Source: Erysipelotrichaceae bacterium | GTDB taxonomy: Bacteria; Bacillota_I; Bacilli_A; Erysipelotrichales; Erysipelotrichaceae | Length of the DNA stretch: 48,109 nucleotides | Assembly: GCA_031272515.1 (NCBI GenBank) | Contig: JAISTR010000015.1 | Location: 1 to 48,109 of the forward strand | Reading direction: 5' to 3' | Part shown: piece by piece, positions 12,756 through 28,445 of the stretch | How positions within the stretch are numbered: position 1 is the first letter of the stretch | Layout: the number at the start of each line of letters is the position of its first letter | Notes under the pieces: generated by a model | Told to the model about the DNA's origin: nothing | The model's input: the letters and a program-made list of their open reading frames with translations, nothing else | The model's database searches: none | Position numbers and translations under genes: made by a program

Positions 12756-12847
12756 TTGCGTTTTAAATCTCCTTTGTTTACAATAAAACCAGGAATTCTA
12801 GGAGACACGGGATGCGTTCTGTGTTTTTTCTTTTTTAAAACATAGAA
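12756..12847 (+). promoter_or_regulatory. Promoter and attenuator-like leader of surface paralog 1
   Basis: TTGCGT (12756-12761), 17 nt, TACAAT (12779-12784). The predicted transcript start is near 12791. The leader then has the box AGGAATTCTAGGAGA (12791-12805). A terminator hairpin follows, ACACGGGA (12805-12812), TGCG loop, TTCTGTGT (12817-12824), with T6-C-T6 behind it. TTCTGTGTTTT (12817-12827) can instead pair with AAAACATAGAA (12837-12847). The start codon is 40 nt further on. The same arrangement precedes the four other paralogs, completely or in part. Confidence 0.75.
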
Positions 12848-12886
12848 GCACGGGAAGAGATATCGATAGACTTGAAAGGAGCGAAC

Positions 12887-15800
12887 GTGAATCACCCATT
12901 TCGCCGTTTAGTGATTGCCCTTTTTGTCATGCTTGCCACCACCCTGAGCAGTTTTATCCCCATCAAGGCTGCCGGCGGCACCCTGACCATCGGTACCACT
13001 ACCACTAACCTGGACACAGATGCCAGCGGCAGCGGCTGGACCTATCAGTCCTCCTCCTGCAAACTGACCATCACCGGCAACATCAATAATGAAATCAACT
13101 TCCAGCCCCAAAGCGGCCTGGGCTGTCCGATGATCCAGGTCGCCTTTAGCACCAATGCCAGCATTGCCGGCCTGCGCCTTTTAAACAGCACCAGGGAAAT
13201 GAGCATTACCGGAAATGGCAAAACCGCAAACAAGCTGACCACCGGTTTTATCAGCTCCAGCGGCCGCATCATCATCCAAAACGCCAATATTGAGGTCCAG
13301 GAAGACATCAGTGCGCAAATGGCAGAGTTCTACAGCAGCACTGTAACGATCGGCACAGTGACCCCCAAGGCCGGCATTAGTGCTGATCAGGACATCGTCA
13401 TCGACGGCTCTGATATCACCGTCAAAGGCAGTACCGGCGGCATCACCTCCAATAACTATATCGCCATGCAAAACTCGCCCAGGGTGTCGGTTGAGAGCAG
13501 CAGCGCCCACGCGATTGTCAATACCGCCACCGACCATGTCGGCGTCACCGCCATCCTAATCAACCTGGATAGTGGCGGCTATGTCTATGCCGTTGGCACC
13601 GGGGGTGCCGTCGGCGCCTACAGCGGTCATATCGTATTGGGTACAAGCGGCCATACCAAAATCCTCAACCCCACTGATGGCTATATGCAAGAGTGGCATG
13701 GCCAGGATGGCGAAATCATCTGTACTTACGGGGATTTGGCCAATACCGTCGTCATCGCCAATGACGGCTTGCAAGTCACATCCGTCACCGTGACACCTGC
13801 GATTGCCGCTGTCCCGGCGGGTTCCAGCCAGCAGTTTTCCGCTTCCCTCAATACCACCGGCCAACTGCCAACAAATGCGGTTACCTGGTCAGTGGAAGGA
13901 GCACATTCCGGCAGCACCAAAATTAACAGCAGCGGCCTGTTGAGTGTCGGCAGTAATGAAACTGCGGCAACCCTGACCATCAAAGCCACAACCATCTATG
14001 ACCCAAGCAAAAGCGGCAGCGGCCAGGCGGTGCTAAGTGCCTCCGCCAACAACTTCACCATCGGCACAAACACCTACTCCCTGCTCTTGGATTCCAGCGG
14101 GACCGGCTGGAGCTATAGCGCCAGCCAGTGCACGCTGAGCATTACGGACAGCCTGAATCAGGATATCGGCTTTCACCCGCAAAGCTCCCTGCCCTGTAAT
14201 ACCATCAAACTCTCCTACAGTAATGACATCACCATCAACAAACTGACCCTGGATACTTCCAACAAAACTCTAGAGCTTACCGGTACCGGCAAAACCGGTG
14301 GCAAGCTGACTTTAAAGAGTATCAACGCCCTGGGAAGCTTGATTATCAATAATGCCAATCTGGATGTAAGCGAAGATATCAACAGCGCGCAGCTTCAAAT
14401 CACCAGTAGTTCCGCAAATATCGGTATCACCACCCCCAAGGCTGGCATTACTTCCAGTGCCTCCATTACCTTTGATAATGCTGATGTCACCATCAAAGGC
14501 AGTACTGCCGGCATTCTTGCCAGCGGCAACATCAGCTTTCAAAACACCCCCCGCATCACGGTTGAAACCGCCAGCGGTTATGGAATCCTTTCCACTTCCT
14601 CCAATAACTCCTCAACCTTGACCATGTTAATCAATCTGGACAATGGCGGCTATGTATACAGCAGCGGCCCATCCGGTGCCATCGCCACCTATGGCGGCAT
14701 GATTACGCTGGGCTATAACGGTTCCACCAAAATCAAAATCCCCTCTGACGGCTATATTGACGGCTACCATGGCGACGGTCAGGGTCTTTTCGGCTATGGC
14801 TACTTTGCCAAGACCGGCTTAATTGCCAGTGATAGCATCAGTGTCACTTCCGTCACCGTTTCCCCTAGCAGTGCGAATGTCGTACCCGGCTTTACCAGTC
14901 AGTTTGTTGCCAGTGTAAACGGCAATAATACGCCCCCCAATAAGGTGACCTGGAGTGTGATTGGTGCCACCAGTACCAATACCAAAATCGATGAAAACGG
15001 GCTTTTGACCCTGGGCAGCGACGAAGCCTCCAGTGCCCTGAGCGTCAAAGCCACCTCCGTCTTTGACACTTCCAAAAGCGGCAGTGCGGCGGTCAATGTC
15101 ATATCCCTTTCCACCAACTACTTCACCATCGGTAGCGAGGTCTATTCGCTTTTTGCCAACTACAGTGGCAACGGCTGGAGTTATTCACCAGGCAGCTGCC
15201 GCTTACTGGTCACAGCCGACCTCAACAAGGATGTCGGTTTTTATCCCAGTGACAATAGTGCCTGCACCACCATTACCTTCAAGTACTCCACCAATATCAC
15301 CATCGGCAAGCTTGTCCTGGAGGGCGCACCGCTGCACCTCTATATCAACGGCACCAGCAAAAAAAGCGGGTTCTTGAATGTCGACAGCATTCAGGCTGAT
15401 GGCAACGTCACGATTTCCTTGACCCAGATGAAGGTCAAGGAAGATATCACTGTGGCGATTCTGGACTTTTACACCGCCTCAGCTGAGGTTGGCCTTGTAA
15501 GCCCGAAAGCGGGGATTGTCACAACCCTGGGCGGCGTTAAAATTGAGGATTCCGACCTGACACTCAAAGGCCTTAGTGGCGGCATCAACTCCCAGCAGGC
15601 GCTGCGGGTTGTGGGTGACTCTCATGTACTGGTCGAGAGCGCCAGCGACTATGGCATTCTGATTGAAAGCAACAACTTTGCCGGCAGCGGCATCGTGACG
15701 CTTGATTTGAATCCGGGCGGCTATCTTGTCACCAGTGGCACCACCACCGGACTTGCGGCCAACAGCGGCAATATCAGCCTTGGCACCTATGGCAAAATCG

Positions 15801-18800
15801 GCTATCCGCAAGATGGCAGCCTTGGGGTCTATGACGTAGATGGCTTTAGCATTTACAGCAATAATACCATCGCCAAAAAAGTGGTGATCACCACCGATGG
15901 CACCATCAATTCCCTCAGCCTTTCCCCAAGCAGCGTAGCCCTGATTAAGGGCGGCACAAAGCAGTTTACCGCCACCATCAGCAGCACTGTCAATCCCCCG
16001 CAGCTGGTGCTTTACAGCATCGAAGGTGCACCCACCAGCAGCAATACCAAAATCGATGAAAACGGCTTATTGACAATCGGCAGCGATGAGACAGCGACCA
16101 GCTTTGTCGTCAAAGCGATGTCAGCCTTTGATCATAGCAAGAGTGCCACTGCTGCCGTATCCATCGTGACAAATGATATCAACAACTTCGAAATCGGCTC
16201 TGACGCCTACTCCCTGTTAGTGGATGTGAGCGGGGATGGCTGGAGCTACACTGCCAACAGCTGCCGCCTGGTGATTAATGAAGACCTCAACAAGGACATC
16301 GCCTTCCATCCCGCCAACCAGAGCGACTGCGCCACCATTACCGTTAAATTCACTGATGATGCAATCATCGGCAAACTGTCTTTGGACACCTCTGAGGTAA
16401 GGATGGACATCTATGGAAACGGCAAGACCAAAGCCCTGCTGCAGGTGGAAAGTGTTTCCTCTGTTGGCAGAGTCTCATTCAACAACGCCAATGTAGAGGT
16501 CAAAGAGGACATCAGCGCCCTCACCGTACAGTTTGACAAGGCGACGGCTGCGGTTGGTACCCTTGAGCCGAAAGCCGGCCTCTTCGCCCATACCGGCTAT
16601 GTGAAGATCTCTGACTCAGACCTCAATGTCAAAGGCCTGACCAGCGGCATCCAGGCACTTTTGGGCGTGAATATCAGTTACCTTTCCCATGTCACTGTGG
16701 AAAGTGAGAGCGACTATGGCATTTATGTGACTGCGGACAACCGCAGCGGCATCGGAGTCCTGGATTTGGAAGTGGATGAAGGCGGTTATATCATTGCGAC
16801 TGGCAAGGTTGGTGCCGTAGCAACCAATAGCGGCAACATCGACCTGGGTAGTACCGCCAAGATCTGCTATCCCTCTGACGGGGTATTGGGTGTCTTGGGA
16901 CAAAGCGGTTCCAGTATTTACTCTAACAGCACCCTGGCGCCAAAGGCGGTCATTGCCCACAAGAACAGCACCGTCGATTCCATCACGATCGCGCCTGTCG
17001 CCATTGACCTCTCTGCCGGCCAAAGCCAGCAGTTTTCCGTCAGTATCAGTGCCAGTGATGACCTGCCGGCTGCCGTCCTTTGGACTTTAAGCGGCAGTGC
17101 GACCAGCAGTGATACCAGGCTGGATGAAAACGGCTTACTGACCCTGGGTGCGGATGAAACCAATGTCAGCTTTACGGTCACGGCTACTTCGCTTTTTGAT
17201 GAGAGTAAAAGCGCCAGTGCCACTGTCACAAACAGCTCCTCTCCAGACTATGGACCCGGCAGTTTCACCGTCGGCAATACCACTTATTCCCTGGGCGAGG
17301 ATGCGGGCGGACCGGGCTGGAATTACTACGCCAGCACCGGCTATTTCTTCATCGGTTCAGCGTTGAATGAAGATGTCTCCTTTTCCCCAAACCCCTCCTT
17401 TGGCTTTGATGTAATCCGCATCGGTTATACCAACGGTACGGCGCAAAGCATCACCCACACCAAAACCATCAAACCTTTAGAGATTACCGGCAATGGCAAA
17501 GACTATGAAAAGCTCACCCTGACCGGAATCTATACACAATCCCCGCTCACCATCCATAATGCCAACATGGAACTCACCGACGGCATTGCAAGCCCGGAAG
17601 TCAGCATCGATTCCAGTAGAATCGTGATTGGCGAGGCCGGACTGGTCGCCTATGACGGGGATGTGGAAATCATCGATACCGATCTTTCAATAGCAGGCGT
17701 CAATAACGGCATCACCGCTTATCACAAGGTTTCAATCAGCGGGCTCTCTGAGGTAAACATCAGCACCGCCAGCGATTATGGCATCGTGACACTCTCTGAG
17801 GATAACAGCAGTACCGCCATTGAGATATCGCTTGCCAGTACCGGCTATGTCACTGCCAGCGGAGAGATTGCGGCGATACTGAGTGGCAGCGGTACGATAA
17901 ATCTGGATTCAAACTCTAAAATCGTCTATCCCAGCCCTGGCAGTGTAGAGAGCTATCAGGATGGCGAAGCGATCTTTGGCGGCGCAGCCCTGGCCCGCAA
18001 AGCCACCATCAGCTATTCCCCGGCAACCATTGACTCGGTCACGGTCTCACCAGCATCTGTGACCCTGTCGGCTGGCCAAAGCCAGCAGTTTACGGCAAGC
18101 GTCAGCGGCACAAATAACCCCAACACCACCGTCGTGTGGAGCCTGGAGGGCTCACCCACCAGCGCAGATACCACTTTGACTCAGGATGGCGTTTTGACCC
18201 TTGGTGCGGATGAGAAGACCGCTTATCTCAGCGTGCGGGCTACCGCCTTATTTGACGGTTTAAAAAGCGGGGTAGCAGCCGTAAACAACAGCTCCTCCCC
18301 GGACTATGGAGTCGGTTCGCTTTATATCGGCGAAACTGCCTATCCCCTGGACAGTAATGCCAGCGGCGTCAACTGGAATTATGATGCCAGTACTGCCACC
18401 CTGACTCTTAGCGGGGATGTGGATGAAGACATTCTCTTCTGGCCCAACCCGGATTTCAGCAAGCCCGAGCTGCATGTGGTATACAGCAGCGATATCACGG
18501 TAAAAAGCATCGCGCATGCCAAACTGATCAAACCGCTGACAATAACCGGAAACGGCAAGGACAATGCGACTTTGACCCTGGAAACCATCGACTGTAAAGC
18601 AGCCCTCAGCTTTGTGGATGCCAATGTGCTTAGCACCGGCGGAATTAGCGGCTCCAGTATCACCAGCAAGGATTCACACCTCGATATCGGCGAGGGTGGA
18701 CTAACGGCTGTGGCTGGTAATCTTACCATTGAGGACTCTGCCATCATCATCATCAGCTCTGATGCAGGCATGACTGCCTACAATCAAATCAATATAAGTG

Positions 18801-20839
18801 GTGCGGTCACGGTCAGTGTGGTCAGTGGCGGCGATTATGGCATCCGGACCCTGTCTGACAGTAATTACGGCAGTGCAATCATCATTGATGTAGACAATAC
18901 CTCCTATGTATTTGCCTATGCAAATACAGCTGCCATTTCCACCAACAGCGGCAGCATTGACCTGAATTCAGGTGAGATCCTCTACCCGCAAGCCGCCAGC
19001 ATTGAGCCAAAGGAAAATGGCGAAGCCGTGGTCGCACAGGGCAAGGCAGCCCCGGTTGCCGTACTGGGATCACCAGTTGTGATCGATGCGATCGAAATCA
19101 CACCGAACTTTGCGAGCCTGGATGCCGGTGAGAGCCAGCAATTCAGTGCAACTGTCATTGGCGAAAGCGATCCGCCGCAGCTTGTCATTTGGTCTTTGGC
19201 AGGTAACCCAACCAGCGATAAAACCAAAATCGACCAAAACGGCAACCTGAGTATCGGCAGCAATGAAAAAGCCACGACCTTATATGTCATCGCTGTCTCT
19301 GCCTATGACCAGTCCAAGAGTGCACAGGCAACAATAAATGTCCATCCCAAGGCTGATAGCGGCTATGGCACTCTGGTCATCGATGGTCAGACCTATGATT
19401 TGGGCTATGATGATGGCGCCAGCAATTGGCACTATGATGCGGCTTCAGGTACTTTGACAATCAACGGCGATATCGATAGCGATGTCATCTTCAGCCCGAC
19501 TGAAACCTTCCCGCTTGATCAGGTTACTGTAAGCTATGGAACGGATGTAATTATCAAGGGCTTGCAGAACACGTCTGACGATAAACCGTTGTTGATTAGC
19601 GGCAACGGTGCTGACCAGGCACAGCTTTCATTGGAAAACATCAACAGTGCCGGTGAAATCGAATTCGCGGATGCCAGGGTAAATGTACAGCATGGCATCA
19701 ACGGCAGCGATGTCAAAGTCAACAGCAGCAACCTTTCAGTCGGCGACAAAGGCATCACAGCAACAGAATCCGGTATCACCATCACCGACAGCGATTTGAC
19801 TGTTAATGGCGTCACCAACGGCTTGAGCGCCTATCAAAATATCTCTGTTGTTGGCAGTTCGCATGTCGATGTCACCACAAACAGTGATGTAGCAATCACC
19901 ACCCTGGCATCCAATCAAGCCGATGCGGATGCGATCGTGATTGATTTGAGTAATGGCGGTTCAATCAGTGCCCAGGGATCGACAGCGGCGATGGCAACCC
20001 GCAGCGGCAAGATCACCCTCTCTGACAATGATGACAACAGTTTCATTGAACCCGAAGATGCAAGTATTGAGTCCTATAACGGCGATGGCGAAGCGGTCTA
20101 TAGTGATGAGAGCCCAGCCGCAAAACTGGTCATTGGCTATCAACAAACCAGCGTCAGTGAAGTGAATGTCGAGCCGGACATCGCCAACCTGTATACCGGT
20201 GACGCGAAACAGTTCACCGCTGTCATTAACGGGGTCAACCACCCTTCGCAAGAGGTAGTCTGGCAGCTACTGGGCTCTCCCACCGACAGCAGAACCCAGC
20301 TGAGTGAAAACGGGCTGCTGGTGATTGGCAAAGATGAAACCGCCACCGCCCTAGAGGTCAAAGCCACCTCGGTCTTTGATCCCAGCAAAAGCGGCAAAGC
20401 CATCGTCAGTATCAGTCCAGCCCCGCCGGTGGACTTTGTGATTGAACCCACGTCCGCCAGCCTGAGGCCGGGGGAATCGCTTGCCTTTAGTGTCAAAGCA
20501 ATCAACCGCACTTTGGACAATGAGGATGTCACCTGGAGCCTGGTGGGAAGCCCCACCAGCAGCAGTACTTCCATCGATCAAAATGGTGTGTTGCATATCG
20601 GCAGTGATGAGAAAGCCGGCAGTTTGAAAGTATTTGCATTCAGTAAAAAGTATCCGGAAAAAACCGCCGAAGTGACTGTAATGATTGTCCATGGCGGCAA
20701 TACCCCAAGTAATCCCACTGCCCCCGACAGTGTCCCGCCGACTTCTGCTTATCAGCGGCTCAGTTTTTATCAAAGCTGCTGGTTGATGGCAGGAATCTGG
20801 CTCTTGATAAAGGTTTTATACAAGGAGGAAAAATTATAG
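12887..20839 (+). CDS. Giant modular surface protein, seven tandem modules (paralog 1)
   Basis: The 2650-aa secreted protein starts at GTG 12887, 5 nt after AAAGGAG; an in-frame TTG at 12872 lies inside the ribosome-binding region. A signal peptide ends near 'PIKA-AG'. Seven tandem modules of about 355 aa follow. Each has a head motif ('FTIG-x-YSL' then 'GWSY'), a repetitive beta-helix-like stretch rich in I/V, N, S, T and G ('ITGNGK', 'GGI', 'YGI' turns), and an Ig-like domain. The Ig-like part carries 'VTVSP', 'QQFTA', 'VTWSLEGSPTS', 'IDENGLLTIGSDE'. An eighth Ig-like domain and a Pro-rich stalk precede 'VPPTSA', a C-terminal membrane helix and 'KEEKL'. Modules 1-4 contain a Cys pair in the head; modules 5-7 have none. 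Adhesin or glycan-binding roles are inference. Confidence 0.88.
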   Translation: MNHPFRRLVIALFVMLATTLSSFIPIKAAGGTLTIGTTTTNLDTDASGSGWTYQSSSCKLTITGNINNEINFQPQSGLGCPMIQVAFSTNASIAGLRLLNSTREMSITGNGKTANKLTTGFISSSGRIIIQNANIEVQEDISAQMAEFYSSTVTIGTVTPKAGISADQDIVIDGSDITVKGSTGGITSNNYIAMQNSPRVSVESSSAHAIVNTATDHVGVTAILINLDSGGYVYAVGTGGAVGAYSGHIVLGTSGHTKILNPTDGYMQEWHGQDGEIICTYGDLANTVVIANDGLQVTSVTVTPAIAAVPAGSSQQFSASLNTTGQLPTNAVTWSVEGAHSGSTKINSSGLLSVGSNETAATLTIKATTIYDPSKSGSGQAVLSASANNFTIGTNTYSLLLDSSGTGWSYSASQCTLSITDSLNQDIGFHPQSSLPCNTIKLSYSNDITINKLTLDTSNKTLELTGTGKTGGKLTLKSINALGSLIINNANLDVSEDINSAQLQITSSSANIGITTPKAGITSSASITFDNADVTIKGSTAGILASGNISFQNTPRITVETASGYGILSTSSNNSSTLTMLINLDNGGYVYSSGPSGAIATYGGMITLGYNGSTKIKIPSDGYIDGYHGDGQGLFGYGYFAKTGLIASDSISVTSVTVSPSSANVVPGFTSQFVASVNGNNTPPNKVTWSVIGATSTNTKIDENGLLTLGSDEASSALSVKATSVFDTSKSGSAAVNVISLSTNYFTIGSEVYSLFANYSGNGWSYSPGSCRLLVTADLNKDVGFYPSDNSACTTITFKYSTNITIGKLVLEGAPLHLYINGTSKKSGFLNVDSIQADGNVTISLTQMKVKEDITVAILDFYTASAEVGLVSPKAGIVTTLGGVKIEDSDLTLKGLSGGINSQQALRVVGDSHVLVESASDYGILIESNNFAGSGIVTLDLNPGGYLVTSGTTTGLAANSGNISLGTYGKIGYPQDGSLGVYDVDGFSIYSNNTIAKKVVITTDGTINSLSLSPSSVALIKGGTKQFTATISSTVNPPQLVLYSIEGAPTSSNTKIDENGLLTIGSDETATSFVVKAMSAFDHSKSATAAVSIVTNDINNFEIGSDAYSLLVDVSGDGWSYTANSCRLVINEDLNKDIAFHPANQSDCATITVKFTDDAIIGKLSLDTSEVRMDIYGNGKTKALLQVESVSSVGRVSFNNANVEVKEDISALTVQFDKATAAVGTLEPKAGLFAHTGYVKISDSDLNVKGLTSGIQALLGVNISYLSHVTVESESDYGIYVTADNRSGIGVLDLEVDEGGYIIATGKVGAVATNSGNIDLGSTAKICYPSDGVLGVLGQSGSSIYSNSTLAPKAVIAHKNSTVDSITIAPVAIDLSAGQSQQFSVSISASDDLPAAVLWTLSGSATSSDTRLDENGLLTLGADETNVSFTVTATSLFDESKSASATVTNSSSPDYGPGSFTVGNTTYSLGEDAGGPGWNYYASTGYFFIGSALNEDVSFSPNPSFGFDVIRIGYTNGTAQSITHTKTIKPLEITGNGKDYEKLTLTGIYTQSPLTIHNANMELTDGIASPEVSIDSSRIVIGEAGLVAYDGDVEIIDTDLSIAGVNNGITAYHKVSISGLSEVNISTASDYGIVTLSEDNSSTAIEISLASTGYVTASGEIAAILSGSGTINLDSNSKIVYPSPGSVESYQDGEAIFGGAALARKATISYSPATIDSVTVSPASVTLSAGQSQQFTASVSGTNNPNTTVVWSLEGSPTSADTTLTQDGVLTLGADEKTAYLSVRATALFDGLKSGVAAVNNSSSPDYGVGSLYIGETAYPLDSNASGVNWNYDASTATLTLSGDVDEDILFWPNPDFSKPELHVVYSSDITVKSIAHAKLIKPLTITGNGKDNATLTLETIDCKAALSFVDANVLSTGGISGSSITSKDSHLDIGEGGLTAVAGNLTIEDSAIIIISSDAGMTAYNQINISGAVTVSVVSGGDYGIRTLSDSNYGSAIIIDVDNTSYVFAYANTAAISTNSGSIDLNSGEILYPQAASIEPKENGEAVVAQGKAAPVAVLGSPVVIDAIEITPNFASLDAGESQQFSATVIGESDPPQLVIWSLAGNPTSDKTKIDQNGNLSIGSNEKATTLYVIAVSAYDQSKSAQATINVHPKADSGYGTLVIDGQTYDLGYDDGASNWHYDAASGTLTINGDIDSDVIFSPTETFPLDQVTVSYGTDVIIKGLQNTSDDKPLLISGNGADQAQLSLENINSAGEIEFADARVNVQHGINGSDVKVNSSNLSVGDKGITATESGITITDSDLTVNGVTNGLSAYQNISVVGSSHVDVTTNSDVAITTLASNQADADAIVIDLSNGGSISAQGSTAAMATRSGKITLSDNDDNSFIEPEDASIESYNGDGEAVYSDESPAAKLVIGYQQTSVSEVNVEPDIANLYTGDAKQFTAVINGVNHPSQEVVWQLLGSPTDSRTQLSENGLLVIGKDETATALEVKATSVFDPSKSGKAIVSISPAPPVDFVIEPTSASLRPGESLAFSVKAINRTLDNEDVTWSLVGSPTSSSTSIDQNGVLHIGSDEKAGSLKVFAFSKKYPEKTAEVTVMIVHGGNTPSNPTAPDSVPPTSAYQRLSFYQSCWLMAGIWLLIKVLYKEEKL
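12977..20427 (+). repeat. Seven tandem ~1.06-kb coding modules
   Basis: Module starts, judged from the head motif 'x-I-G-x3-Y-x-L', fall near 12977, 14046, 15115, 16186, 17260, 18313 and 19366, so the period is 1053-1074 nt. The Ig-like halves share 'GSPTS-x2-T-x-ID-x-NG-x-L-x-IGSDE'. The copies are diverged at the nucleotide level, so this is an old amplification rather than a recent slippage repeat. Confidence 0.85.
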
Positions 20840-20903
20840 GGTATTAATATAGCAGTGGATAGAGAAGACAATGATTGAGATTAGAAAAGCATAATATTAC
20901 AAC

Positions 20904-20946
20904 AAAGCACAGGCGAAGCAGTTCCATCTGCTTCGCCTGTTGCTTT
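20904..20946. terminator. Bidirectional terminator between paralog 1 and the unknown minus-strand gene
   Basis: CAGGCGAAGCAG (20910-20921), a 6-nt loop and CTGCTTCGCCTG (20928-20939) form a perfect 12-bp stem with AACAAAGCA and TTGCTTTATTT flanks. The right flank reaches the stop codon of the minus-strand gene. Confidence 0.88.
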
Positions 20947-21580
20947 ATTTTGGATAAACCAGAACTTTTCCCTTTTTTGCGGTCACCTCATAAATCGAGA
21001 CATCTTTCTCACTTTCCGGGTACACTTCCAGCACCCGGTCCGGATAAGGCCCATCCGGCCAGCTGACTGTAATTCCTGTCAGGACATCCCCTCGGTAGGT
21101 ATATTTCGTTGAGGTGAACCGTTCCGGAAATGTCTCATAGTTATTGCCAAGAGTTGTCTTCGACAGCACCCTGGCTCCCTCAAATTCAAAGCAAGAGACC
21201 GCCTTGAGTTTTGGGTTCTTTTCAGAAATGCTGGTAAACCCATATTGCACCGCGCAATTTCCCTCGTATTTAATAATGTGGTCATCATGAAGAAAGCCTT
21301 GGCCGTTTTTTAGCGGCTGCATGTATTTGATTACATAAATCAAACGATCCTGGATGTCGTACACATATTGGATCCGGTTACTGTCCGGCTTACTTACCCC
21401 CTTCAATAACTTTCCCCGCTTTATCCCGATGATTTCAGAGAAATACGGCTCCAAGGAAACCGCATCCACAAATCCCCTTGACCACTTTGCATATTTCTCT
21501 TCTTCGTGAACATAAGCAAGCAGCTCTTGGTAGGAGTCTGCGGATTGAAACAATTCAATCATGCGGCTTTTCTCTATCAT
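20945..21580 (-). CDS. Unknown protein (211 aa) inserted between surface paralogs
   Basis: I do not recognise the family. The protein has no signal peptide or membrane helix. Residues 1-40 are helical and acidic ('MIELFQSADSYQELLAYVHEEEKY'). The rest is beta-rich, with strands such as 'YVYDIQDRLIYVIKY', 'YTYRGDVLTGITVSWPDG' and 'VSIYEVTAKKGKVLVYP'. The repeated Tyr-x-Tyr-Asp type strands recall small cytoplasmic beta-sheet proteins, including some immunity proteins, but this is only a resemblance. AAGGAGAGCTT precedes the ATG. It is the only gene in the 16-kb cluster on the minus strand and shares its terminator with paralog 1. Confidence 0.7.
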   Translation of the reverse strand: MIEKSRMIELFQSADSYQELLAYVHEEEKYAKWSRGFVDAVSLEPYFSEIIGIKRGKLLKGVSKPDSNRIQYVYDIQDRLIYVIKYMQPLKNGQGFLHDDHIIKYEGNCAVQYGFTSISEKNPKLKAVSCFEFEGARVLSKTTLGNNYETFPERFTSTKYTYRGDVLTGITVSWPDGPYPDRVLEVYPESEKDVSIYEVTAKKGKVLVYPK

Positions 21581-21706
21581 AAGCTCTCCTTTTTAAGACC
21601 AGGATGGTATCCGATCTCTTTGTGACTGTCTTCATTCTACCTGCCCAGGCCCTCCTGTGCAAGAATTTACACCCTCTTTTTGACCTGTTTTTCATTTTTG
21701 GGCCTC

Positions 21707-21793
21707 TTGCATTTTGTCTTTTCCCTGCTACAATAAAACCAGGAATGTTAGGAGACACGGGACAACCTGTGTTTTTTCTTTTGGTAAGCACAG
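21707..21793 (+). promoter_or_regulatory. Promoter and attenuator-like leader of surface paralog 2
   Basis: TTGCAT (21707-21712), 16 nt, TACAAT (21729-21734). The box AGGAATGTTAGGAGA (21741-21755) follows. The hairpin is ACACGGG (21755-21761), ACAA loop, CCTGTGT (21766-21772), then T6-C-T4. CTGTGTTT (21767-21774) can alternatively pair with AAGCACAG (21786-21793), keeping the pairing although the downstream arm differs in sequence from that of paralogs 1 and 3. The GTG start is at 21836. Confidence 0.78.
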
Positions 21794-21835
21794 ATTCAAA
21801 GAAGAGTAGCGGGAAGAACTTTGAAAGGAGCGAAT

Positions 21836-23296
21836 GTGACAAACAGGATTCGCAAGTATCTCATTTCCTTTTTAGTGGTGTTTTTAACCGTGGTACCCGC
21901 CACGGTACGCATTCGGGCTGTTGATTACGGCTTCTGCAACATTGGTACGACAGGTGTTGGTTTTGATCTGGGAGCAGACAATAGCGGTGCCGGCTGGAGC
22001 TATGAAGCCGCCAGCGGTACGGTGACCCTGACCGCAAATCAAGACAACATCAGCTGCACGCGCGGCGCTGACTTCCCAAATCCGCTAATCACCTTGAAAT
22101 ATGAGGGCAACCTCACCATTAACAGCACATTGGAGGGGGATTATATAGAAATTGTCGGTAACGGCAAAAACGGGGATTTGCTCACGGTAACCGGAGCAAT
22201 CAACAGCACCGGCAAGATTTCCCTCACAAATGCCAACATCGAAGCACCGCAGTTTTCGGGAGCAGTGGTGGTTTTGGACAACAGTACCCTGCACAGCCCG
22301 AACGGCTTCAGTGCGGCAGCAGGTGGCTACCAGGGCAATTTGAACACCAAGAACAGTACCATCATCGTCGACGGCCAAAATAACGCCGGCATGACCCTCA
22401 ACTACGCATTGTTTGATACCGGCAGCCTGACTGAGGTTTCCAATAGTGCCAACATCGCCATTGATGCAGACGGATCCACTGTTACGGTGCAAGGCGATGC
22501 CATAATTCAAATCAGTGATGCGGCCAATATCGGCTTGAAAGCCACTAGCCTGTTAATCGGCGGCACGGCACAGCTGCATGTAAGCGGCGCGCCGGCTGTA
22601 GCAGGAATTGATGCCGGAGCATCCATCACGATGGTCCAGCAAGCAAAAATTATCATGGATGCCCCGATGATTGTGACAACCGACCTGATTATTGAACTTT
22701 TGCCCGGAGCATTGCTTGATATCGAAGTTCCGGACGGGACGGCTGCAGTACAGGTCAAGGATACAAACGGCTATCTGGGAATTCGAAAAGGTGACATACT
22801 CGAACCGGAGGGCGCCAGGGTCGCAGTTGAGGATGGTATCCTGACCATCGTCACGGATGATGGTGTCGTCAGCAACCTGTCCATCGTCATGCATGTGCTC
22901 GACAGCATTACCATCACACCGCAAAACCCGGTGGCAGTCAAAGGTTCAAGCCTAACCTTCAAAGCTACCTTGCATGGCACCCACATCGTGGATACCGTAG
23001 TGACCTGGAGCCTGGAGGGAACCCCCACCAGCATTCACACCCTCATCAATGAGAGCGGGCTGCTGATTATCGGCGCCGATGAAACCGCGACTGACTTGCG
23101 GGTGAAGGCCACCTCCCATTCCGACCCGGATATCTACGCGCTCTCCGGTGTCATCACCTATCGCACCCCCGGCGGCGGATCATCTGTAAACCCGCCTACC
23201 GGCGTGTTTACACAAAGCAGTGTTTGGTTCTATCGCTTAATCATCTCAGCATTGGTACTGAGCGTCTTGAAAGCAAAAAACAAAAAGTTTCAGTAA
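21836..23296 (+). CDS. Single-module surface protein (paralog 2)
   Basis: The 486-aa protein starts at GTG 21836 behind AAAGGAG. Signal peptide: basic 'TNRIRKY', a hydrophobic core, cleavage near 'RIRA-VD'. One module follows: head 'DYGFCNIG' and 'GWSYEAASGTVTL' with a Cys pair, a beta-helix-like region with 'IVGNGKNGD', and an Ig-like domain beginning 'DSITITPQNPVAVKG' with 'TWSLEGTPTS' and 'IIGADETATDL'. The C-terminus is a Gly/Ser linker, 'NPPTGV', a hydrophobic helix and basic 'KAKNKKFQ', the shape of a cell-wall sorting signal with a non-canonical motif. It is closest to paralog 3 in leader, head and C-terminus. Confidence 0.85.
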   Translation: MTNRIRKYLISFLVVFLTVVPATVRIRAVDYGFCNIGTTGVGFDLGADNSGAGWSYEAASGTVTLTANQDNISCTRGADFPNPLITLKYEGNLTINSTLEGDYIEIVGNGKNGDLLTVTGAINSTGKISLTNANIEAPQFSGAVVVLDNSTLHSPNGFSAAAGGYQGNLNTKNSTIIVDGQNNAGMTLNYALFDTGSLTEVSNSANIAIDADGSTVTVQGDAIIQISDAANIGLKATSLLIGGTAQLHVSGAPAVAGIDAGASITMVQQAKIIMDAPMIVTTDLIIELLPGALLDIEVPDGTAAVQVKDTNGYLGIRKGDILEPEGARVAVEDGILTIVTDDGVVSNLSIVMHVLDSITITPQNPVAVKGSSLTFKATLHGTHIVDTVVTWSLEGTPTSIHTLINESGLLIIGADETATDLRVKATSHSDPDIYALSGVITYRTPGGGSSVNPPTGVFTQSSVWFYRLIISALVLSVLKAKNKKFQ

Positions 23297-23315
23297 AAGA
23301 CACAAAGCTTCTTAC

Positions 23316-23350
23316 AAAACACGGATGTGCATGCATCCGTGTTTTGTTTT
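23316..23350 (+). terminator. Intrinsic terminator of paralog 2
   Basis: AAAACACGGATG (23316-23327), a 6-nt loop and CATCCGTGTTTT (23334-23345) form a perfect 12-bp stem followed by GTTTT. The outer arm is nearly the same as the ACACGGG arm of the leader hairpins. Confidence 0.92.
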
Positions 23351-23386
23351 GAGGCAGTTTGAAACAAATTGTGCTTAAGCAACCCC

Positions 23387-23473
23387 TTGCATTTTGTTAT
23401 TTCCCTGCTACAATAAAACCAGGAATGTTAGGAGACACGGGACAGCCTGTGTTTTTTCTTTTTTAAAACACAG
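23387..23473 (+). promoter_or_regulatory. Promoter and attenuator-like leader of surface paralog 3
   Basis: TTGCAT (23387-23392), 16 nt, TACAAT (23409-23414), box AGGAATGTTAGGAGA (23421-23435), hairpin ACACGGG (23435-23441), ACAG loop, CCTGTGT (23446-23452) and T6-C-T6. CTGTGTTTT (23447-23455) pairs perfectly with AAAACACAG (23465-23473). From the -35 box to the T tract the sequence is almost identical to the paralog 2 leader. Confidence 0.8.
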
Positions 23474-23515
23474 ATTCATTAAAGAGCAGTGGGAAGAACT
23501 TGGAAAGGAACGATG

Positions 23516-25069
23516 ATGAAATATAAGATTCGCAGGGTTTTCCTTACCCTTTTTGTGGTTTTTTTTACTGTTGTGCCAACCACCGCTACGGTTCAGGCAG
23601 CGGATTATGGAAGCTGTGCCATCAACGCTATTGGACTTAACCTGGAGAATAACAGCAGTGGTGTTGGCTGGAGCTATGAACGAAATAACCTGGTTGGAAC
23701 CCTAACCTTGACTGCTGATCAAAACTTCGGTATTACCTGCAACAAAGGTGCGGACTATGTGCTGCTGAAAATCCAGTATGAAGGAGATGTTACGATTTCC
23801 GGAAATCTGACCCTCAATATCGAAGCTTCCATCTATGGTAACGGCAAAGAAGGTGATAAGCTGACCATTACCGATACCCTCAGCAACAACGAAACCCTGT
23901 TGATTGCCCAGGCCAATGTTGAGGCAGAGACTTTTTCTGGAAATGCCACCAATGTGCAGGAAAGCAATTTGGTGGTTCAGAATTTTTCAACCGATTCTGT
24001 CTCTATATATTATGGCAGTACTGTTCACAGCAGCAATACTTTCCACGTCACCAAATCTTTGACTGTTAATGAGGGCACTGTGATTCTGGATGGCCAAGAC
24101 AACACCGGGCTCCAATTCGATACCGGGACATTTTCCTTAACCGCCCGCATTGAAGTTTCCCACGGTATCAATAAGGGAATTTATTGTAACAGTTTAATCA
24201 TTCAAAACGATGCTGTCGTAATCATTGATGATGTAGCACATGTTGGTATCTGGACCACAAACGGTTTGTTTATTAACAATAACGCCAAGGTGCACATCAC
24301 CGGCGGCTATGCCGAGGGAGCAATCGCCACTCAAAACACCGGTATTTCGATTAGCGGTAAAGTGGATGTATACACCGAAGCCCCCATCGTTGTAGCGAGT
24401 GGCAACCTCAATGTGATCCTTACTGCCGGCGGCCGCGTTGAAATCAATGCAGACCCCTCCAAAGCAGCAATCCAGGTTTTGGGTGAGGCAGCACTTTTCG
24501 ATATTGGCAGTTCGGAGATTCAGCTGCCAACGGACGGCAGTAAAGGCAACTATGATGATACGCCAACGATTCTTAACGGAGACGGAGTTCCCGCAAATCA
24601 TGTTATTCTGGCAATTCATCAATTGGACAGTGTCACAGTCAGCCCGGAAAACCCAATCGCATACAAGGGCTCATTCGTGCAATTTACGGCAGCGCTCAGC
24701 GGTTTGAATATCGTGGATGAGGAAGTGGCCTGGAGCCTGGAAGGAACCCCCACCAGCAACCTCACCAGCATTGATGAAAATGGCAAGCTGACCGTCGGGG
24801 CGGATGAAACGGCTTCTGACTTGCGGGTACGTGCTACCTCGCACTCTGATCCGGGTATCTCCGGTCTCAGTGAAGTCATCACCCTTCAAAATGCAGCGGC
24901 ACCTGTTAATCCCTCCAATCCTGGAAGCGGGTCGGGCAGTGGTGCCGCAGGTGGTTCTTCTACCCCATTAACAGGCGTGTATAACCAAAGCGTTTTATGG
25001 TACTGGGGTCTGTTGATTTCAGCACTGAGTCTGGTGTTAATCAAGAGAAAACAGAATCAGTTTGATTGA
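23516..25069 (+). CDS. Single-module surface protein (paralog 3)
   Basis: The 517-aa protein starts at ATG 23516. Aligned with the other leaders this second ATG keeps the spacing to AAAGGA; the ATG at 23513 is an alternative. The signal peptide ends near 'TVQA-AD'. The module has a Cys-containing head ('DYGSCAINAIGLNL', 'GVGWSYERNN'), a beta-helix-like part with 'IYGNGKEGDKLTI', and an Ig-like domain ('DSVTVSPENPIAYKG', 'WSLEGTPTSN', 'TVGADETASDL'). A Gly/Ser-rich stalk leads to 'TPLTGV', a membrane helix and 'KRKQNQFD'. Anchoring by a sortase is likely but no sortase gene is in the window. Confidence 0.85.
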   Translation: MKYKIRRVFLTLFVVFFTVVPTTATVQAADYGSCAINAIGLNLENNSSGVGWSYERNNLVGTLTLTADQNFGITCNKGADYVLLKIQYEGDVTISGNLTLNIEASIYGNGKEGDKLTITDTLSNNETLLIAQANVEAETFSGNATNVQESNLVVQNFSTDSVSIYYGSTVHSSNTFHVTKSLTVNEGTVILDGQDNTGLQFDTGTFSLTARIEVSHGINKGIYCNSLIIQNDAVVIIDDVAHVGIWTTNGLFINNNAKVHITGGYAEGAIATQNTGISISGKVDVYTEAPIVVASGNLNVILTAGGRVEINADPSKAAIQVLGEAALFDIGSSEIQLPTDGSKGNYDDTPTILNGDGVPANHVILAIHQLDSVTVSPENPIAYKGSFVQFTAALSGLNIVDEEVAWSLEGTPTSNLTSIDENGKLTVGADETASDLRVRATSHSDPGISGLSEVITLQNAAAPVNPSNPGSGSGSGAAGGSSTPLTGVYNQSVLWYWGLLISALSLVLIKRKQNQFD

Positions 25070-25087
25070 CAGTATAGACTGACAAAC

Positions 25088-25122
25088 AAAACACGGGTGT
25101 GAAAACATCCGTGTTTTTGTTT
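25088..25122 (+). terminator. Intrinsic terminator of paralog 3
   Basis: AAAACACGGGTG (25088-25099), TGAAAA loop and CATCCGTGTTTT (25106-25117), with one G-T pair, followed by TGTTTT. It is a near copy of the terminator after paralog 2. Confidence 0.92.
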
Positions 25123-25247
25123 TGCGCTATGTTTGAAGTTAATCTTATCTGCTGTCATTTCTTTTTTCATTTCTATCCGCAAATTTTTCCGTTTTTTAAC
25201 AATTCCCGCATTTCTCTTAAACGTTTCTTAAAGAGCTGGTGAATTTA

Positions 25248-25323
25248 TTGTTTTTTATTCTTTGCATCCTATAATTTACTTTGTATTCAATAATTACACG
25301 GGGGAATTCCTGTGTTTTTATTT
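25248..25323 (+). promoter_or_regulatory. Promoter and attenuator-like leader of surface paralog 4
   Basis: TTGTTT (25248-25253), 16 nt, TATAAT (25270-25275). The terminator hairpin is ACACGGG (25296-25302), GGAATT loop, CCTGTGT (25309-25315), followed by TTTTTATTT. The upstream AGGAAT box and the downstream complementary arm seen in the other leaders are missing; a GGAATTC word sits in the loop instead. The rest of the 300-nt gap after paralog 3 is AT-rich with no other feature. Confidence 0.68.
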
Positions 25324-25369
25324 GGATTTACGGTTATTATTTGGTTTTTTCGTAAGAGAGGAGAATAAC

Positions 25370-26755
25370 ATGAAAAATCGGATTTTGAAGTTTAGTCTTT
25401 TTTTGACTGCCCTGCTGATCAGCGTCTTTATGCAAAACACCAGTGTGCAGGCAGAGGATGACGATTGGGGTGACATGTACATCACCAGCGGGTATTATCA
25501 TTTGAACCAGGATGCCAAAAGCGATGTGAACGGGCAGTGGGACTATGATGCCGATACCGGTACCTTAACGATAAATGGGAATATTAATGGAGGTGTTGAT
25601 ATCACCGTCAAAGAACAGTTTCCCCATGACACTTTCAAGGTCGTCTTCACCAAAGATATAGAATGCGACAGTTCCTGGACCTTTTGGCAAGGCAATGTTG
25701 AAATCATCGGTCAAGGAAAAGATAACCCGAGAATCTATATGTCTTCGGCTTTAAATGCGGAACAGGACTCTTTGTCAATTTCCAACATCGCTATGCATGT
25801 TGCCGGTCTCGATACCCATGATGTCACAATTTCCAACAGTGATTTGGATATCACTGGAAATTTTGACGAAAAAGGGGCGCTTTACATTAATAACAGCAAA
25901 GTTCTCATTACTGGTTATCTTCATGTGGGAAAGGATCTGGTAAGAAACGGCAAAGCTTCTCTCACAATCAACGATAGTGTTGTAACTGTTGACAGCAGTT
26001 CAACCAGCTATAATGAGGTTCGTGCTGATGAAATTTATATCAATGGTGTTTCTGATGTGCGGGTGATGGATGGAACCGTTTATGCCCGTAATTATTTGCA
26101 TTTGAATCTTGGTTTAGGCGGAGCATTTGAAGTGCAGGCACCTGAGGCAGAGCAAGCGATTAAAACTGACAGTGTTGATAGCAGCATCATCATCAACCGC
26201 ACCAACCAAATGATGCTGCCGAAAAATGGGAGTGTTCAAATTTACGACGATGCTCAAACCATTATGGACAATGAGCAGCCAGCCAGCCATGTATTGATTG
26301 CCAATCCCAAGGTTTCCGGTGTCAGCATCTTCCCCAATGAGGCAGCTGTAAAGCCAGGAGAAAGCATGCAATTCACCGCTCTCACAGCTGCCAGCGAAAA
26401 TGTCGATGACCTTGTGCTTTTCGCACTCTATGGTAATCCAACCAGTCCAGATACCTTTCTGGATCAGGATGGGTTACTTACCATCGGCAGTGATGAAACC
26501 GCGAAGGTTCTCAGCGTTGTTGCCCTTTCTGATGCGGATCACTCCAAGTTTGATGTCGCACCGGTACTGGTTCAACAGGAAACAGTAGTGGTGAACAACG
26601 CCCAAAACAGCAGCCAAAGAACAGCCAGCCCGGTAAATGACAGCACCATCCCTTTGACCGGAGTTGCTCCCACTACGCTTTTATGGCCCTTGGCAATGAC
26701 CACCACCGGCTTGACCATCGCCTATCTCAAAAGCAAAAAGAAAAACTGCGACTGA
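25370..26755 (+). CDS. Single-module surface protein (paralog 4)
   Basis: The 461-aa protein starts at ATG 25370, 6 nt after AGAGGAG; the reading frame extends upstream through the leader but without a ribosome-binding site. The signal peptide ends near 'SVQA-ED'. The head is Cys-free ('DDDWGDMYITSG', 'WDYDADTGTLTINGNING') and resembles modules 5-7 of paralog 1. The beta-helix-like region is short and more Asp/Asn-rich. The Ig-like part has 'VSGVSIFPNEAAVKPG', 'LYGNPTS' and 'LTIGSDETAKVL'. It ends with 'IPLTGV', a helix and 'KSKKKNCD'. Codon use looks more AT-rich than in paralog 1. Confidence 0.83.
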   Translation: MKNRILKFSLFLTALLISVFMQNTSVQAEDDDWGDMYITSGYYHLNQDAKSDVNGQWDYDADTGTLTINGNINGGVDITVKEQFPHDTFKVVFTKDIECDSSWTFWQGNVEIIGQGKDNPRIYMSSALNAEQDSLSISNIAMHVAGLDTHDVTISNSDLDITGNFDEKGALYINNSKVLITGYLHVGKDLVRNGKASLTINDSVVTVDSSSTSYNEVRADEIYINGVSDVRVMDGTVYARNYLHLNLGLGGAFEVQAPEAEQAIKTDSVDSSIIINRTNQMMLPKNGSVQIYDDAQTIMDNEQPASHVLIANPKVSGVSIFPNEAAVKPGESMQFTALTAASENVDDLVLFALYGNPTSPDTFLDQDGLLTIGSDETAKVLSVVALSDADHSKFDVAPVLVQQETVVVNNAQNSSQRTASPVNDSTIPLTGVAPTTLLWPLAMTTTGLTIAYLKSKKKNCD

Positions 26756-27021
26756 ATCATTGGCAACTACTTGCGTTTATTGCGACCGTGGCTCGGCAGG
26801 CAGAATACCGAAGCAGTCAGCGTCTGTTACTGATTTTGCGAAGGAAATTTGAAACTATAACCATCTGTCAATTACCCCGCGAATGACTTTCAATGTCATT
26901 TCCGTCGTAAATATATCATATCCCGATATATTTACGACGGTTTTGACAGTAGATTCCATTATCACTGTATCATCTGCCCTGTTTTCAAATATGTGAAATG
27001 AACAATAGAAAAAAGGAAATC
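26756..27021. other. Intergenic stretch between paralogs 4 and 5
   Basis: The gap from the paralog 4 stop to the paralog 5 start is 376 nt. It contains a small inverted repeat AATGAC-N7-GTCATT (about 26882-26900), the long palindrome at 26902-26944 described separately and then the paralog 5 promoter and leader. I see no supportable gene in it. Confidence 0.5.
26902..26944 (+). terminator. Long AT-rich palindrome, likely terminator of paralog 4
   Basis: CCGTCGTAAATATATC (26902-26917), a 7-nt loop and GATATATTTACGACGG (26925-26940) form a perfect 16-bp stem followed by TTTT. It is longer and more AT-rich than the other terminators here and lies 146 nt past the stop codon, so a second role as a protein-binding site or a remnant of a small element is possible. 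Confidence 0.6.
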
Positions 27022-27112
27022 TTGTTTTTTAATATCACCGGTCTATAATGAAGTCAGGAATTCTAGGAGAACACGGGACAATCATACCAGTGTTTTCTTT
27101 TTTTAGAAAACA
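27022..27112 (+). promoter_or_regulatory. Promoter and attenuator-like leader of surface paralog 5
   Basis: TTGTTT (27022-27027), 16 nt, TATAAT (27044-27049). AGGAATTCTAGGAGA (27056-27070) is identical to the box of paralog 1. The hairpin is AACACGGG with CCAGTGTT (27070-27094, one mismatch, 9-nt loop), followed by TTCTTTTTTT. TGTTTTCT (27091-27098) can pair with AGAAAACA (27105-27112). The ATG is at 27132. Confidence 0.7.
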
Positions 27113-27131: not shown

Positions 27132-28445
27132 ATGAAAACCAGGATGATTCGCCTTGCTTATGTTTACATTATTGTTTTATTTTTCATATGCATTTTTCCC
27201 CTGTCCGTTAAGGCAGATGACTGGGGAACATTAGAAATTGAAAGTGTCACCTATGGCTTAAAGACGGATGCATCCGGGACCAACTGGTCCTATGATGCAG
27301 ATACCGGCGTCTTGACTTTGCATGGCGATATATCATCTGCCATAACTGCTGTCCCCAATGGCCAGTTCCCCTATTCATCCATGACTTTGATTTACAGCAC
27401 TGATGTCACAGTCGCGGGAAATCTGGTTTTGAGCAATAGCATCATTAACGGCAGTGGCAAAGACACCAGTAATCCTACCCTGACAATCAACGGTAACATT
27501 CAAGTCGACGGAGATTTATCCATCTCTGATGCCAGACTCAGCACGCAGAATATTCAAGCCGGAGAGCTTTCAATCAGTAACAGCAATGTCACCGCCAATA
27601 ACTTGTTAGGCTTGAAGTCTCTCTCCATCGATCAAAGCGTCATCACCGTCAATATAGGAATCTCCTCCAAGGGGTCACCGATCACCATTTCCGATTCCAA
27701 AATAACGGTGAGCGGAAATAACGGTTATATCAGCTGTTCCCAAACAATTATTTCCGGTTTAATCGATATTAAAATTCATAATGGCATGTTGGTAGCGGAG
27801 TCGGAGGGCTTAATCATTGACATCACGGAAGGCAGTATCATTGACGTGAATAATGATATCAGCAGCTTAGCGATTGCGGCAGGAGATCCTGGCGGACTGC
27901 AATTGGCAGACCAGGTAAAAGTCCGTCTTCCTTATGAAGGATATGTAGGAATGTCTCAGGGGGAGAAACCTGTTCAAACCATTCTCAACCATGACGGACA
28001 AACCGCAGCCCATGTGATTTTAGCCGTACCGGTCCCCTTCTATATCCAGCCGCAAAATCCTTCCCTGGCACCCGGGGAAACTTTGGCCTTATCACTGGTG
28101 GATAAAGAAGATAAGCTCAGTGCAGTTGCGGTCAGTTGGCAAATCCTCTCCAATAAAACCAGCAGCAGTACTTATATTGACGCAAACGGCGTTTTGCATA
28201 TCGGAGCCGATGAGCAGGCAGCCAGCCTGAGCATTCAGGCGATGTCAGCAGATGATGATACCAATACCGCTGAGGTTACTGTATCAATCGCAACAAAAAC
28301 ACCGCCAAAAGCCTCTGTGCACTCAGTGCAAAGCACAGCTGCTGTTGCACCGCCTACTGCGGCTTTATTAAATCCCGGGCTCTGGCTGACAACCTTGCTG
28401 TTGGCATTGTTTGCGGTGGCGTTGGTTGCAGGAAGGGAGAATTGA
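27132..28445 (+). CDS. Single-module surface protein (paralog 5)
   Basis: The 437-aa protein starts at ATG 27132 behind AGGAGGATTT. The signal peptide ends near 'SVKA-DD'. The head 'DDWGTLEIESVTYGL' and 'NWSYDADTGVLTLHGDI' is Cys-free and close to paralog 4 and module 7 of paralog 1. The Ig-like domain has 'FYIQPQNPSLAPGETLAL', 'SNKTSSSTYIDANGVLHIG' and 'ADEQAASL'. The C-terminal segment is 'VAPPTAA', a hydrophobic helix and a very short tail 'AGREN' with little positive charge. The sorting-like motif has lost the Gly after Thr, so this paralog may be membrane-retained or released instead of wall-linked. Confidence 0.83.
   Translation: MKTRMIRLAYVYIIVLFFICIFPLSVKADDWGTLEIESVTYGLKTDASGTNWSYDADTGVLTLHGDISSAITAVPNGQFPYSSMTLIYSTDVTVAGNLVLSNSIINGSGKDTSNPTLTINGNIQVDGDLSISDARLSTQNIQAGELSISNSNVTANNLLGLKSLSIDQSVITVNIGISSKGSPITISDSKITVSGNNGYISCSQTIISGLIDIKIHNGMLVAESEGLIIDITEGSIIDVNNDISSLAIAAGDPGGLQLADQVKVRLPYEGYVGMSQGEKPVQTILNHDGQTAAHVILAVPVPFYIQPQNPSLAPGETLALSLVDKEDKLSAVAVSWQILSNKTSSSTYIDANGVLHIGADEQAASLSIQAMSADDDTNTAEVTVSIATKTPPKASVHSVQSTAAVAPPTAALLNPGLWLTTLLLALFAVALVAGREN

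Follow-up and report, generated by a model that had tools for sequence, protein, structure and literature searches.

What allows a gene to be expressed when its transcript carries a terminator close to its 5′ end? The question is raised by five paralogous surface-protein genes in the window, the whole 48,109-nt stretch of DNA analysed here. A preliminary description, made from the window alone, had placed a promoter, a hairpin, and a T tract well ahead of the ribosome-binding site in all five genes, and a conserved 5′ box in four of them. All of these parts are present at the positions given, with the box in paralogs 1, 2, 3, and 5 and absent from paralog 4:

12756..12784, + strand: paralog 1 promoter, TTGCGT, 17 nt, TACAAT (sequence; the −10-to-box distance is 6–7 nt, fixed in all copies)
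12791..12804, + strand: paralog 1 5′ box AGGAATTCTAGGAG; predicted +1 is the first A; proposed sRNA target; predicted duplex with the sRNA loop −17.4 kcal/mol
12805..12836, + strand: paralog 1 early terminator hairpin ACACGGGATGCGTTCTGTGT plus T tract TTTTTCTTTTTT (sequence, folding)
12819..12845, + strand: paralog 1 alternative hairpin 2 (CTGTGTTTT..AAAACATAG); mutually exclusive with the terminator, favoured in folding when the box is blocked
12887..20839, + strand: paralog 1, very large surface protein with Big_2-type repeats (ORF 12872-20839; likely start GTG 12887)
21707..21734, + strand: paralog 2 promoter, TTGCAT, 16 nt, TACAAT (sequence)
21741..21754, + strand: paralog 2 5′ box AGGAATGTTAGGAG; predicted sRNA-loop duplex −16.3 kcal/mol
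21755..21782, + strand: paralog 2 early terminator hairpin plus T tract (sequence, pattern search, folding)
21821..23296, + strand: paralog 2 surface protein ORF, 41% identity to paralog 3
23387..23414, + strand: paralog 3 promoter, TTGCAT, 16 nt, TACAAT (sequence)
23421..23434, + strand: paralog 3 5′ box AGGAATGTTAGGAG; predicted sRNA-loop duplex −16.3 kcal/mol
23435..23464, + strand: paralog 3 early terminator hairpin plus T tract (sequence, pattern search, folding)
23513..25069, + strand: paralog 3 surface protein with C-terminal TPLTGV sortase-like motif and membrane span (ORF)
25248..25275, + strand: paralog 4 promoter, TTGTTT, 16 nt, TATAAT (sequence)
25296..25319, + strand: paralog 4 early terminator hairpin plus T tract, without 5′ box (sequence, pattern search)
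25370..26755, + strand: paralog 4 surface protein (ORF)
27022..27049, + strand: paralog 5 promoter, TTGTTT, 16 nt, TATAAT (sequence)
27056..27069, + strand: paralog 5 5′ box AGGAATTCTAGGAG; predicted sRNA-loop duplex −18.3 kcal/mol
27071..27104, + strand: paralog 5 early terminator hairpin ACACGGG..CCAGTGT plus T tract (sequence, folding)
27132..28445, + strand: paralog 5 surface protein (ORF)

The order of parts in the window leaders is a sigma-70-type promoter, the box (paralogs 1, 2, 3, and 5), ACACGGG..CCTGTGT, and a T tract. The box has the form AGGAAT-NY-TAGGAG and begins 6–7 nt after the −10 hexamer, at the predicted +1; counted from the predicted start, the T tract ends at +42 to +49. 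The hairpin, earlier given as ACACGGG...CCTGTGT, is present but is not a perfect inverted repeat: a G.U pair lies within the stem of every copy except that of paralog 5, and the 3′ arm reads TCTGTGT (TTCTGTGT) in paralog 1 and CCAGTGT in paralog 5. The pattern ACACGGG-N2..12-CCTGTGT has three exact matches in the window versus none in 100 shuffles.

The five genes stand as a set, but they are only part of a larger one, with approximately 15–16 copies of the element in the 2.13-Mb genome, including the five in the window. The strict combination of box and ACACGGG gave eight genome matches versus none in a reversed control, and the hairpin with T tract gave 13 versus none. A covariance model (R1) built from 13 leader copies found 15 places at E<0.005 in the window genome, and the paralog 4 leader brings the count to ~16. 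The copies are on contigs C3, C4 (which is the window), C30 (five adjacent genes), C51, and C54 (four). A covariance-model count of how often the element precedes secreted proteins had been proposed with the preliminary description; within this genome, every copy is directly upstream of a signal-peptide gene, encoding a secreted or cell-wall-anchored protein. Where the 3′ end of a surface gene was read, the encoded protein usually has a PLTG-like motif and a membrane span at its C terminus. At least three kinds of ectodomain are found behind the leader: Big_2-type repeats in the window genes, GGGIY-type repeats with Flg_new (Listeria-Bacteroides) repeats in the C30 and C54 genes, and a third kind in the C3 and C51 genes. 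Because these ectodomains differ, sequence comparison identifies the leader as a common control unit rather than just a stretch carried along upstream when one gene was duplicated.

Among the 12 full copies, pairwise identity reaches 1.00 in ACACGGG, 0.97 in AGGAAT, and 0.91 over the 3′ arm and T tract, versus a background level of 0.29–0.37 in the flanking 20 nt upstream and downstream. Near-invariant box and hairpin sequences amid such diverged flanks argue that the conservation does not simply reflect recent duplication. All or half of the box is missing from three hairpin-bearing leaders: paralog 4 is boxless, and C30a and C54d retain AGGAATTG but have lost TAGGAG. The C30c copy is decayed. 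The fixed distance between box and −10 would also be expected if a transcription factor bound the DNA at an operator around +1, with the hairpin incidental. We consider this very improbable for two reasons. Spacing differs across copies, at 4–14 nt between the hairpin arms and 12–16 nt between box and arm, and such variation fits an RNA hairpin rather than a single operator dyad. The T tract, moreover, is conserved as well.

As far as can be seen from sequence collections, the leader element appears to be lineage-specific. The strict leader pattern was found in 0 of 59 other genomes, and the exact pattern was absent from viral contigs and from 84,980 species, a collection that may not include genomes closely related to this one. 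The R1 model applied to 273 genomes of the family found no convincing copy outside the window genome, only weak matches at E 8e-4 and worse; those that were readable are ordinary terminators or chance matches, not promoter-proximal leaders. The paralog 3 homologues in other genomes share only the Big_2-like part, and therefore provide no cross-genus comparison of leaders.

How strong is the early terminator? All copies have the anatomy of an attenuator: a 7-bp core stem is followed by a T tract that ends, at +42 to +53 of the predicted transcript, ahead of the ribosome-binding site. Folding energies of the core hairpin are −3.9 to −9.9 kcal/mol, and a lower stem, formed by pairing of the box AGGAGA with the U tract, brings the total to −10.8 to −15.2 kcal/mol (−18.1 in variant C30a). 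Terminators at gene ends in the window have −17 to −25 kcal/mol, and the leader hairpins are 7–20 kcal/mol weaker. Partial read-through is therefore expected, and the earlier expectation that such a terminator should shut off expression was too strong; by their predicted energies the leader hairpins are moderate terminators that look like leaky attenuators.

Low constant expression could then come from the leader by itself, acting as a fixed leaky terminator or 5′ stabilising hairpin with no trans-acting RNA and with AGGAGA as nothing but the purine side of the lower stem. Weak hairpins suit partial read-through, the lower stem is paired in 98% of alignment cells, and the hairpin occurs without a full box in paralog 4, C30a, and C54d. 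However, AGGAAT lies outside the stem and yet shows its 0.97 conservation, even in C30a and C54d where TAGGAG is lost, and a plain attenuator gives no reason for GGAGA to have replaced A-rich lower stems in most copies. We regard such a self-sufficient attenuator as unlikely.

Known regulators of leaders were also considered. Rfam covariance models for riboswitches, T-boxes, and ribosomal leaders gave no match above gathering score in the window, and no described element with the leader consensus was found, in agreement with the preliminary description on both points. Two of its candidate mechanisms fared less well. A LoaP-type antiterminator is not supported, as the genome, which is 97% complete, encodes a single NusG-type (PF02357) protein, adjoining a SecE-like ORF. 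Length variation of the T tract is not supported either: phase variation was defined by an uninterrupted tract of at least eight identical bases with variable length, and the leader T runs do not exceed seven and are broken at a fixed position in most copies. CsrA/Rsm control is not supported, because no CsrA is encoded in the genome, the control searches being positive. A leader peptide was rejected; GTG-TTT-TTT-CTT is present in many copies, but by eye its frames and stops are not conserved. One BglG/LicT-type CAT_RBD protein is encoded on contig C27, adjoining a PTS EIIA-like ORF. Antitermination of that type would require a RAT hairpin overlapping the terminator; on by-eye inspection, no RAT-like sequence was noticed in the leader, which seems unlike the RAT consensus.

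Almost no compensatory change is found in the terminator stem, the arms being invariant. An invariant ACACGGG, a conserved G.U pair, and the lack of compensatory change look like sequence-specific recognition, as would be expected if some other protein antiterminator or repressor reads the box and hairpin RNA (AGGA-N-AGGAGA next to ACACGGG). The BglG/LicT-type protein provides one RNA-binding candidate, but the position of its gene beside a PTS component is the usual one for sugar control, and the genome encodes only a single NusG, without a LoaP-like paralog or a CsrA. A protein reader is, in our view, rather improbable.

A different candidate reader is encoded elsewhere in the genome, and for that reason was missed by window-only reading. 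It was found by searching the genome for near-complements of the box, and was thus selected by complementarity after the fact. With up to two mismatches, the box has 31 matches in the whole genome, nine of them in leaders, versus 26 in the reversed control; the remainder is at chance level. Two opposite-strand matches fall inside a repeated small RNA (sRNA) gene. Because two-mismatch matches are barely above the control, the link depends on the position of the matches and on the later tests described below. The genome search gave three copies of the sRNA:

C29:22101-22182: sRNA copy
C53:31271-31357: sRNA copy
C53:31490-31575: sRNA copy

The sRNA consists of a hairpin GUAAGC..GCUUAC, a second hairpin GUACGG..CCGUAC with an open loop of ~31 nt (CCUCUUCUCCUACAAUUCCC), a single-stranded linker UCUAUCCCCUUAAA, and a terminator. 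The three copies fold with z-scores of −6.2 to −8.5, with the loop open. A covariance model (R2) built from them detected the family in 36 of the 273 family genomes and 19 of 60 genera, with named carriers that include Holdemania filiformis, H. massiliensis, and Erysipelothrix MAGs; at E<=0.001 it was not found in the searched genomes of other families of the order. In an alignment of 33 sequences, both partners vary in 13 of the 15 pairs; 96% of alignment cells are paired versus 23–45% when the alignment is slid, a difference that is partly built in because the alignment was fitted to the structure. The family has no match in Rfam. Identity with RsaE/RoxS was rejected: the RF01820 score was 15.1 bits against a cut-off of 79, and the C29 copy had no match. 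This is a conserved, covarying sRNA family of about 20 genera that is new to Rfam, and it stands independently of the link to the leaders.

The C-rich loop and linker (CUCUUCUCCUAC, UCCCCUUA) resemble RoxS/RsaE-type seeds. The C53 copies are in tandem, ~130 nt apart, and their loops differ by one inserted base (CAACUUCCC versus CAAUUCCC). Most sRNA copies that were read have an upstream repeat of the form TCACANANTTTNACATAATT / TCACAtaTTTTTACATAATTT at approximately −60, possibly a response-regulator site driving the sRNA.

The sRNA loop is antisense to the box over 13–14 pairs with one mismatch, and with the majority box it forms the helices GGAAUU and UAGGAGA(A), with a single mismatch between them. 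By sequence, a structured gene with an open region complementary to a putative target has the anatomy of a trans-acting sRNA. For all of the 12 full boxes, pairing with the loop is predicted at −14.6 to −18.3 kcal/mol; compared with dinucleotide shuffles, p is <=0.05 for 11 of these boxes and 0.23 for one. The best loop site per leader averages −17.0 for the surface-protein leaders, whereas 28 leaders of other genes in the window average −11.1 (p 2e-7, the paralogs not being independent). The three sRNAs of the window genome pair best with its box, compared with the other 30 of the 33 sequences. G-rich sites elsewhere in the window pair with the loop more strongly than the box does, at lower energies. 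In some leaders (C30b, C30e, and C51) a downstream purine site (GGGAAGAGG) pairs with the loop equally to the box. A second contact, of the linker with UUUAAGGG after the T tract, is clear only in C54a-c. The loop sequence CUCUUCUCCUAC is conserved also in genera without the leader, and therefore the sRNA must have other targets. The invariant ACACGGG with its G.U pair is unaccounted for by the sRNA.

The box adjoins the 7-bp core stem without being part of it, and its pairing would accordingly weaken, but not abolish, the terminator. When the box is blocked in folding, the terminator loses ~4–5 kcal/mol (7.7 in paralog 5), and paralogs 1 and 5, C3, and C51 switch their minimum-energy fold to hairpin 2, with the U tract paired to downstream sequence. 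Hairpin 2 joins the 3′ arm and T tract to a downstream purine arm; it is significant singly only in C3, C51, and paralog 3, with a combined p of ~0.001, and we retain it as a possible part of the leader.

Our best explanation, to which we would give about an even chance, is that the leaders are a multi-gene attenuator and sRNA target, with the sRNA as the likely reader of the box. Transcription would start at the first A of AGGAAU, and the first ~45 nt would fold into a weak intrinsic terminator, the box AGGAGA pairing with the U tract as its lower stem. Some polymerases would terminate and free an RNA of 42–53 nt, and others would read through into the surface-protein gene. The open loop CCUCUUCUCCUACAAUUCCC would base-pair with the box (GGAAUU-N-UAGGAGA). 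The favoured outcome is activation, in which AGGAGA would be withdrawn from the lower stem and the terminator weakened by the predicted ~4–5 kcal/mol. The paired sRNA would also cover the 5′ end of the mRNA, and in several copies the freed U tract could form hairpin 2. Terminated leaders, which contain the whole pairing site and the terminator and so have the anatomy of a sponge, might titrate the same sRNA. The element, its copies, the sRNA family with its structure, and the complementarity are read directly from the DNA; from these we infer that the two RNAs meet, and more weakly what follows, as sequence alone gives no firm ranking of outcomes. If the pairing is real, we would roughly assign a little under half of the probability to an effect on termination, a little over a third to protection or decay of the 5′ end, and a fifth to a sponge role only.

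The short leaders could instead be the main product, independent sRNAs made from gene promoters, with the 42–53-nt RNAs sponging a C/U-rich sRNA and the genes living on read-through. Each leader has the anatomy of a minimal sRNA, with a single-stranded 5′ seed and a terminator with U tail, in ~14 copies, and 5′-UTR sponges such as ChiZ and IspZ provide precedent. However, identical anatomy is predicted by the attenuator and sRNA-target explanation, of which this is one branch, and as a separate account we find it quite improbable.

Antisense RNAs are known to alter intrinsic termination in leaders, as in synthetic STARs and pT181-type attenuation, and STARs bind the 5′ arm of the terminator core. 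In the present proposal, by contrast, pairing is confined to the lower stem and the 5′ end, and involves a natural, trans-encoded sRNA. To our knowledge, few natural cases are documented in which a trans-encoded sRNA regulates intrinsic termination, although the principle is exploited in engineered STARs. LoaP/NusG-paralog antitermination is alike in combining a 5′-proximal RNA element with terminator read-through but differs in that the present genome lacks a second NusG. RoxS shields the 5′ end of the yflS mRNA in Bacillus subtilis (PMC5419742). As with RoxS/RsaE on yflS, a C-rich Bacillota sRNA would pair at the extreme 5′ end of an mRNA, and activation by 5′ shielding is possible, whereas the present sRNA differs in sequence and structure and its target is a multi-copy leader with an early terminator. 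In Escherichia coli, ChiZ and IspZ are sponges derived from 5′ UTRs (PMC7815308). A further sponge, RosA, acts on RoxS. As in the ChiX–chiP/ChiZ and IspZ cases, a prematurely ended target leader would give a short RNA able to titrate the regulating sRNA. Unlike ChiZ and IspZ, which involve Hfq (and Rho for ChiZ), the present leaders have an intrinsic hairpin and ~14 parallel surface-gene copies, and their sponge role is only proposed.

From the sequence relationships, one sRNA may set expression of the whole surface-protein set. If so, most large adhesin-like surface proteins would be controlled through a common attenuator, a compact means to coordinate or diversify the cell surface of a gut-type bacterium. 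The complete proposal is more doubtful than the link itself, and we put it forward tentatively, as an unlikely possibility: intrinsic termination at ~14 surface leaders would be under the simultaneous control of one natural, trans-encoded sRNA family, which would compete for the lower stem at the 5′ end of the RNA, and the terminated leaders would form a feedback pool of sponges.

Several further features of the leaders and their genes were observed. A conserved purine motif GGGAAGAG(G) is found at ~+60 to +80, ahead of the ribosome-binding site, in paralog 1, C30b-e, C3, and C51, and it is also complementary to the sRNA loop (CCUCUUC). The C30b, C30e, C3, and C51 leaders have a possible third hairpin (GGTTTCTC..GAGGAACC and variants) 3′ of the T tract, which would sequester the Shine-Dalgarno region. 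The decayed leader copy at G000:C30:21166-21228 contains an 11-bp inverted repeat, TTGCGTCTTTT..AAAAGACGCAA, across the −35 region and former box. The gene-end terminators of paralogs 2 and 3 (23310-23350 and 25088-25117) share the ACACGG/CCGTGT theme of the leader hairpins but are much stronger.
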